DNA from: Candidatus Nanopelagicales bacterium
GTDB taxonomy: Bacteria; Actinomycetota; Actinomycetes; S36-B12
Length of the DNA stretch: 64,000 nt
Direction of reading: 5' to 3'
NCBI GenBank assembly: GCA_017854795.1
Contig: JAFMHB010000004.1
Span: 68,504-132,503, forward strand
Shown one piece after another: positions 42,435 to 44,282 of the stretch (within the stretch, counting starts at the first letter, position 1; every line of letters starts with the position of its first letter). The translations under genes were made by a program, and so were the position numbers. Below the pieces are notes generated by a model that was not told the DNA's origin, did no database searches, and was given only the letters and a program-made list of their open reading frames with translations.

Positions 42435-42475
42435 TTGACTGTGGAGGAAAATGGAGTATCGTGGCGCCACTGGGA
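42435..42475 (+). promoter_or_regulatory. mraZ promoter with MraZ-box-like TGG repeats
   Basis: TTGACT (42435-42440), 16-nt spacer, TATCGT (42457-42462); TGGAG-N5-TGGAG-N5-TGGCG at 42442/42452/42462 plus TGGGA at 42471. Confidence 0.65.
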
Positions 42476-42518: not shown

Positions 42519-42950
42519 ATGTTTCTTGGTACCCAATCTCCGCGCCTTGATGAAAAGGGGCGCTTAGTGCTTCCGGCCAAATACCGAGAAGGGTTGGCAG
42601 CAGGTCTGGTTTTCACACGTGGCCAAGAGCGATCAATCGTGGTGTGGCCCAGCGCGGAGTTTGCCACCTATGCCGAGCGGCTGAGTGTGGCTTCGCGCTC
42701 CGATTCCAGCGTTCGTGCTTATCTTCGGGTTCTGTTCTCGGGGGCGGTCGACGAAATTCCAGATCGCCAGGGCCGAGTCATGGTCCCCTCGGAGCTTCGT
42801 TCATATGCGGATTTAGACCGAGATGTAGTCGTCGTTGGTAACGGAAGCACCCTAGAGATTTGGAATGCGCCAGCGTGGGATGAATACCTCGCAGGTCAAG
42901 AAGCAGGCTTTTCCGCCCTTAGCGAGGAGGTAATACCGGGAATTTTCTAA
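42519..42950 (+). CDS. mraZ: Transcriptional regulator MraZ
   Basis: MFLGTQSPRLDEKGRLVLPAKYRE; IPDRQGRVMVPSELRSYADL; head of the dcw cluster. Confidence 0.95.
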   Translation: MFLGTQSPRLDEKGRLVLPAKYREGLAAGLVFTRGQERSIVVWPSAEFATYAERLSVASRSDSSVRAYLRVLFSGAVDEIPDRQGRVMVPSELRSYADLDRDVVVVGNGSTLEIWNAPAWDEYLAGQEAGFSALSEEVIPGIF

Positions 42951-42956
42951 TTCGGA

Positions 42957-43078
42957 TTGGCCAATGAGGTCTCCACCCGCTCTTTGATCCTGACATCACT
43001 TCCCCGATGTCAGGGCGCGCGACAGACAACATGGTTTGGCGAGAGTTGGTGATAGCGGGCGGAGACCTGATTGACCAA
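42957..43078 (+). ncRNA. Candidate cis-regulatory RNA between mraZ and rsmH (compare mraW RNA motif)
   Basis: 25-nt arms 42957-42981 and 43054-43078, 22/25 complementary, enclosing the hairpin CCTGACATC-ACTTCCCC-GATGTCAGG (42989-43014). Confidence 0.6.
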
Positions 43079-43146
43079 ACACATCACTTCAGGAAAAAGG
43101 ATAGAACCCGACCGCGAATCGTGTTCCACGAGGGAAAGAAGCAGCA

Positions 43147-43290
43147 ATGAGCACCATTAATGAATATCTCCATAATCAGGTCGACCTGATTCCCAGCGGA
43201 GTTCGCACCGGAGCAGCGATTGCTGCCGCCGGTATTGCTACTGGAAGCCTTGTTTATTTTTTGTCGATTCTCGTAGGGTCCTGGGGTTAA
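43147..43290 (+). CDS. Small single-TM protein (47 aa) between mraZ and rsmH
   Basis: ATG..TAA reads [47 protein letters not shown]; upstream GAGGGAAAGAA; below the ORF-track size cutoff. Confidence 0.65.
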
Positions 43291-43295
43291 CTCAC

Positions 43296-44282
43296 ATGTC
43301 AATCGAGCCCCGCCATACACCTGTCCTCGCGGACCGGGTTTTGGCATTGCTGGCTCCTGCATTGGACCAACCCAATGCGGTACTCATTGACGCAACATTG
43401 GGGCATGGTGGGCACAGTGAATTGGCCCTCAACGCTTTTCCAGAACTAACCGTCATTGGTCTTGATCGTGATCTCAGTGCAATCGAATTGTCAGCGCAAA
43501 GGCTTGCACAATTTGGATCCCGCGTCATTCTGGTTCATGCGGTTTACGACCGAATACCAGAGGTGCTCGCAGATAACAATTTTTCGGGAGTGCAAGGAAT
43601 TTTATTTGATCTCGGAGTTTCCAGTATGCAACTCGATGAACCTGAGCGTGGATTTTCATATTCCGTAGACACCTTTCTTGACATGCGAATGGATCAATCC
43701 TCAGGTATCACTGCGGCCGAAGTTCTCAACACATACGAGCCTGGTCAACTGGTACGAATTCTGCGTAATTACGGTGATGAAAAATTTGCCACTCGGATCG
43801 TCGAACGGGTAATCCGTGAGCGCAAGGTCGAGCCCTTTGATCACTCTGCACGATTGGTTGACTTAATCAGAGAAGCTATTCCGGCAGCTGCGCGACGCAC
43901 TGGCGGCAACCCAGCAAAACGGACTTTCCAAGCATTGCGAATTGAGGTGAATTCTGAGCTGACCGTTCTGGAGCGTGCAATTCCGCTTGCAATTGACTCA
44001 CTAGCAGTGGGTGGTCGAATAGTGGCAATGTCGTACCAATCACTCGAGGACAAAATTGTCAAACAGGTGTTCACTCAACGAAGTGTGGCGAATGTTCCCC
44101 ATGACCTCCCAGTAATCCCAGATGCCGCCAAGCCTGAATTGAGGCTTCTGACTCGAAGTTCTGAAAAGGCAACCGAACAGGAGATTCATCAAAACCCTCG
44201 CTCAGCTTCAGTTCGACTTCGAGCCGCAGAGCGCATTCGTATTCGCGATCTTTCCGAAAAGAGAGAGGGGTTTGCTGCATGA
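43296..44282 (+). CDS. rsmH: 16S rRNA (cytosine(1402)-N(4))-methyltransferase
   Basis: [67 protein letters not shown]. Confidence 0.97.

Follow-up and report, generated by a model that had tools for sequence, protein, structure and literature searches.

A predicted mraW RNA and an adjacent invariant 36-nt element between mraZ and rsmH in a Candidatus Nanopelagicales bacterium

The inverted repeat located downstream of mraZ in the 64,000-nt window (the whole stretch of DNA that was analyzed) is, judged from its sequence, an mraW RNA, a diverged copy of a structure already known from actinobacteria. We observed homology to this family, a structure with compensatory changes, an invariant loop and a fixed place after mraZ, and the explanation that accounts best for these observations, in which we have good confidence, is that the repeat forms a long imperfect mRNA hairpin between mraZ and the remaining dcw operon that would act in cis. 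Action in cis on the mraZ-rsmH transcript is most likely, and control of the downstream dcw genes by the mraW RNA is plausible. The family itself has been described before, and what is added here is a further member with a lineage-specific spacer.

The 2 arms of the repeat, each of 25 nt, were complementary at 22 of 25 positions (88%) and have the coordinates noted in the first-pass annotation (Table 1). The inner hairpin that had been recorded between them was likewise recovered as a perfect 9-bp stem, consisting of CCTGACATC (42989-42997), the loop ACTTCCCC (42998-43005), and GATGTCAGG (43006-43014). The predicted fold of positions 42940-43100 on the + strand had a value of -61.5 kcal/mol versus a mean of -43.7 for shuffled sequences (z = -4.4), and none of the 200 shuffles folded as well.

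Table 1. Coordinates of the features at the mraZ-rsmH junction, given as positions in the window
Feature	Coordinates	Strand	Basis
mraZ, 143 aa	42519..42950	+	Pfam MraZ 2e-35, NCBIfam TIGR00242
Predicted mraW RNA, outer stem, 5' arm	42957..42981	+	Pairing, fold, covariance-model alignment, covariation
Predicted mraW RNA, inner hairpin, loop ACUUCCCC at 42998-43005	42989..43014	+	Perfect 9-bp stem, invariant loop
3'-side spacer insertion, ~39 nt	43015..43053	+	Loop-to-3'-arm distances, model alignment
Predicted mraW RNA, outer stem, 3' arm	43054..43078	+	Pairing, fold, covariance-model alignment, covariation
Invariant element GAACCCGACCGCGAATCGTGTTCCACGAGGGAAAGA, 36 nt	43104..43139	+	Identical in 10/10 aligned congener loci
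Unannotated ORF, 47 aa, one hydrophobic stretch	43147..43290	+	Position conserved in the genus
rsmH (mraW), 16S rRNA C1402 methyltransferase	43296..44282	+	Pfam Methyltransf_5 1.8e-105, NCBIfam TIGR00006

The first-pass annotation had also suggested that the location of the repeat matches the mraW RNA motif (Rfam RF01746; Weinberg 2010, PMC2864571), and both its location and its structure were confirmed by a match to the Rfam model, by the loci of relatives and by a covariance model. No match was obtained at the inverted repeat in a scan at the threshold of Rfam itself. At a permissive threshold, RF01746 aligned over the full length of the element, loop in register, at 27.3 bits, which is below the curated cut-off of 50 bits for mraW, a search threshold and not a structural feature. 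With the same model, matches were identified at the mraZ-rsmH junction in 67 of the 85 family genomes, of which 45 were above the cut-off, as well as in 112 of the 148 genomes in the order sample and in 193 of the 297 genomes in the class sample. The same junction in one congener (G073) contained an mraW match of 55.2 bits, above the Rfam cut-off. A match to the Rfam entry DLEU2_6 was far under its own cut-off and was taken as chance.

Loci were further collected and anchored on the loop and the arms; a diverse set of 48, all from other genera, was aligned and used to build a covariance model that did not contain any congener. This model matched the inverted repeat in the window at 72.7 bits (E 1.3e-13), and its sole other match in the window, of 37.9 bits, was to the complementary strand of this repeat. 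The terminal CUUCCCC loop on a CCUG...CAGG stem was present in the inner hairpin at 42989-43014, and the loop was invariant in all 48 of the aligned loci. The flanks of the element were identified as mraZ and rsmH by Pfam and NCBIfam, as for the known motif in an actinobacterial genome.

Covariation among the relatives, whose absence the first-pass annotation would have counted against its reading, was strong. In the 48 loci from outside the genus, 30 pairs in 2 helices were formed in 89.6% of the cells of the alignment, with compensatory, two-sided changes in 24 of the 30 pairs, and none of 500 shuffles matched any of the 5 covariation measures. Pairing fell to 33% to 46% in a control in which one side was slid by 1 to 3 columns. 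RNAalifold, to which the structure was not supplied, identified two-sided changes at 16 of 21 pairs of the outer stem. The lower part of the outer stem covaried in loci of many families and was among the best-covarying parts of the structure, and the suggestion of a lineage-specific extension was therefore abandoned; the long enclosing stem corresponds to the standard outer stem of the canonical mraW RNA.

The part that is specific to the lineage, to go by the alignments, is the 3'-side spacer between the inner hairpin and the 3' arm of the outer stem, which is variable within the genus. Of the 10 congeners, 7 had a distance of 62 to 73 nt from the loop to the 3' arm and 3 had a short one; elsewhere this distance was mostly 27 to 47 nt. 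In the alignment to the model, the 3' spacer of the window contained 37 positions versus 6 in the model, and the low Rfam score is probably due to this long spacer.

The stop codon of mraZ is located 6 nt upstream of the outer stem. The gene that follows the mraW RNA is not rsmH, since a small ORF lies between them, which each of the 10 congener loci retained intact in the same position with a length of 47 to 50 aa, and for which no match was found in Pfam and NCBIfam. The first ORF after the mraW RNA was also short in most of the other loci examined. The gene for FtsL (identified with Pfam and NCBIfam) is located after rsmH. Upstream of mraZ, at 42435-42466, TTGACT is followed by GTGGAG, ATGGAG, and GTGGCG repeats, spaced by 10 bp and overlapping TATCGT, which by eye resemble MraZ boxes over the mraZ promoter. 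It was also noted that most loci of genus g10 (L002-L017) contained a perfect GGGGAAG, complementary to the loop, in the ribosome-binding site of mraZ, and that GGGGAAG was present in the ribosome-binding site of rsmH too in the loci where rsmH was located.

The element in the window shares with RF01746 the mraZ-rsmH position, the outer stem including its internal mismatches, the CCUG...CAGG inner stem and the CUUCCCC loop. It differs in its score under the cut-off, in having about 39 extra bases that separate the inner hairpin from the outer arm on the 3' side, and in being separated from rsmH by the short ORF and the 36-nt invariant element. It also has a strong G+C-rich intergenic hairpin in common with intrinsic terminators and attenuators, but on reading the sequence neither 43014 nor 43078 was seen to be followed by a T run (from 43079 onwards it is ACACATCACTTCAGG), so that an intrinsic terminator was rejected, and unlike such structures its loop was invariant across the aligned loci. 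As for the features of a riboswitch, the mraW consensus is a single long hairpin with no junction. Among the dcw leader RNAs known elsewhere, UpsM of R. sphaeroides (PMC5089854) is likewise a case of control at the RNA level at a dcw cluster, but it is proteobacterial and precedes the whole cluster, whereas the mraW element sits inside the mraZ-rsmH junction.

The mechanism that we tentatively prefer, at somewhat below even odds, is a stem opened by ribosomes combined with a trans-acting reader of the loop. The mraW RNA would form a two-part stem with a terminal CUUCCCC loop, and ribosomes finishing mraZ would open the stem, which abuts the mraZ stop codon. Otherwise, the stem would fold and present the loop to a protein or nuclease acting in trans, and this loop-reading factor would set how much of the mRNA of the downstream genes survives or gets translated. 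The coupling to mraZ translation is proposed for the family of the window, in which the stop codon of mraZ was mostly 9 to 20 nt 5' of GAGG, apart from a few rows in the table of distances that were in the wrong frame (-2 or -100). This brings the stem within, or close to, the footprint of a ribosome at the stop codon, so that terminating ribosomes could open its lower part. The corresponding distance in mycobacteria was 18 to 45 nt, and coupling to the stop codon can thus not be universal. The reported 5' end of mraW in C. glutamicum falls within the 3' portion of the motif, and the C. diphtheriae motif is located upstream of the mraW start site (PMC3890552, PMC5784534). With 5' ends at such positions, some rsmH transcripts would be without the element, which suggests that it may act on the mraZ mRNA or on read-through transcripts and not as a simple rsmH leader.

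The positions of these ends in the 2 corynebacteria, together with the long and well-paired stem, would also agree with a somewhat unlikely explanation, according to which the element is mainly a structure for the 3' end, processing or stability of the mraZ mRNA. A double-strand nuclease such as RNase III would cut the stem and thereby uncouple mraZ from the downstream genes, for which transcription could additionally begin at the 3' edge of the motif. RNase III is known to act on the mraZ mRNA in C. glutamicum (Maeda 2016, as cited in later papers), but the cut cited is in the mraZ coding region and not in the mraW element. Moreover, the data sets behind the corynebacterial 5' ends present them as primary starts, and a stem that is merely cut would need no invariant loop. 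The loop could in turn be explained by base-pairing of CUUCCCC with the next gene's ribosome-binding site, which would be masked, as pairing was good in some genera, comprised 5 bp with GGGAAAG in the window, and was perfect with GGGGAAG in genus g4. Against this, the mean duplex energy across loci was -7.1 compared to -6.2 for permuted loops, GGGGAAG came no higher than about fifth when 21 permutations of its letters were ranked, and the ribosome-binding sites of mraZ matched the loop better than those of the next gene, all of which makes masking highly improbable. As a general rule, such pairing was no better than expected from a purine-rich composition, except perhaps in single genera, and it was not supported as such. 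Since the conservation of the loop is not generally explained in this manner, it points to a trans-acting factor.

It is also conceivable, if quite improbable, that the inverted repeat works at the DNA level, as an operator, or within an antisense RNA transcribed from the - strand. The repeat folds on both strands, and minimum free energies did not favor the + strand but leaned slightly to the - strand, which had the more stable fold in 52 of 85 loci; furthermore, the GAGG-CTCC and GACCTG parts show sequence conservation beyond what pairing alone would account for. However, the lower stem stays paired through many two-sided changes, which would be needless for an operator bound by a protein, and the separation of 72 nt is long for an operator. 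G-U pairs also exceeded A-C pairs on the + strand (48 vs 29, with 3 recurrent wobble or mismatch positions excluded; p 0.04, not corrected for shared ancestry), which weakly favors the + strand. Papers on C. glutamicum and C. diphtheriae report transcription of the mraW motif (PMC3890552, PMC5784534), and it is mainly from these RNA-seq reports and from the direction of the operon that we assume the sense strand to be the active one.

A second element, of 36 nt, is located about 25 bases 3' of the mraW RNA and just 5' of the 47-codon ORF, and is conserved far more than its surroundings. It contains an ACCGCGA core, a short hairpin (UCGUG-UUC-CACGA, 43119-43131) and a purine-rich GGGAAAG, and its flanks were variable among the 10 congener loci in which it was identical. 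In the same 10 species, none of 51 fourfold sites in mraZ was invariant, and the longest invariant run was 6 nt in mraZ, 8 nt in the N-terminal part of rsmH and 4 nt in the small ORF. A 28-mer core of the element was identical and single-copy in 11 of the 12 genomes of the genus; the twelfth, which was 77% complete, had no match to mraZ either. The 28-mer was absent from the remaining family genomes at up to 3 mismatches. A close variant of the 36-nt element with a changed loop was identified in genus g4. In a single congener (L041 in G075), roughly tandem GAGAAAAGTAAAGATC-like repeats lengthen the stretch between the mraW RNA and the element, which was still identical past these repeats.

The ACCGCGA core recurs after mraW RNAs in other actinobacterial families, and outside the genus 18 of 72 dereplicated loci contained it 5' of the start codon that comes next, compared to a mean of 1.3 for its permutations and to none of the 72 loci for its reverse complement. 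A short hairpin frequently began one base 3' of ACCGCGA, with a mean z of only -0.55 versus shuffles, which was not significant overall, and is suggestive at best of a structure. A regulon of ACCGCGA sites was rejected, as the other exact CCCGACCGCGAA matches in congeners were mostly located elsewhere and at least 3 of the 6 that were read fall in long open frames; the pattern of ACCGCGA with a ribosome-binding site gave numerous matches, which looked mostly coding, although they were not individually checked. An origin in a phage or as an attachment site was dismissed, with no match in viral contigs. No Rfam entry matched the 36-nt element, and a non-exhaustive literature search yielded no published description of it. 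The element may possibly represent a new post-transcriptional control site beside the mraW RNA, read by a trans-acting factor, perhaps RsmH or another RNA-binding protein, that would set dcw expression. The putative site would consist of a single-stranded ACCGCGA core, followed in many lineages at once by a short hairpin and then by the ribosome-binding site of the first gene, and would probably be a second site of post-transcriptional control, at the start of the next cistron.

The mraW RNA heads the operon for division and the cell wall in most of the actinobacteria sampled, and no functional test of it was found in the literature examined. The analysis extends the mraW RNA to a genus that is mostly missed by the Rfam threshold and indicates that its stem is structural. 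For uncultured aquatic actinobacteria, the 36-nt element offers a target for dcw control that is short and can be tested.
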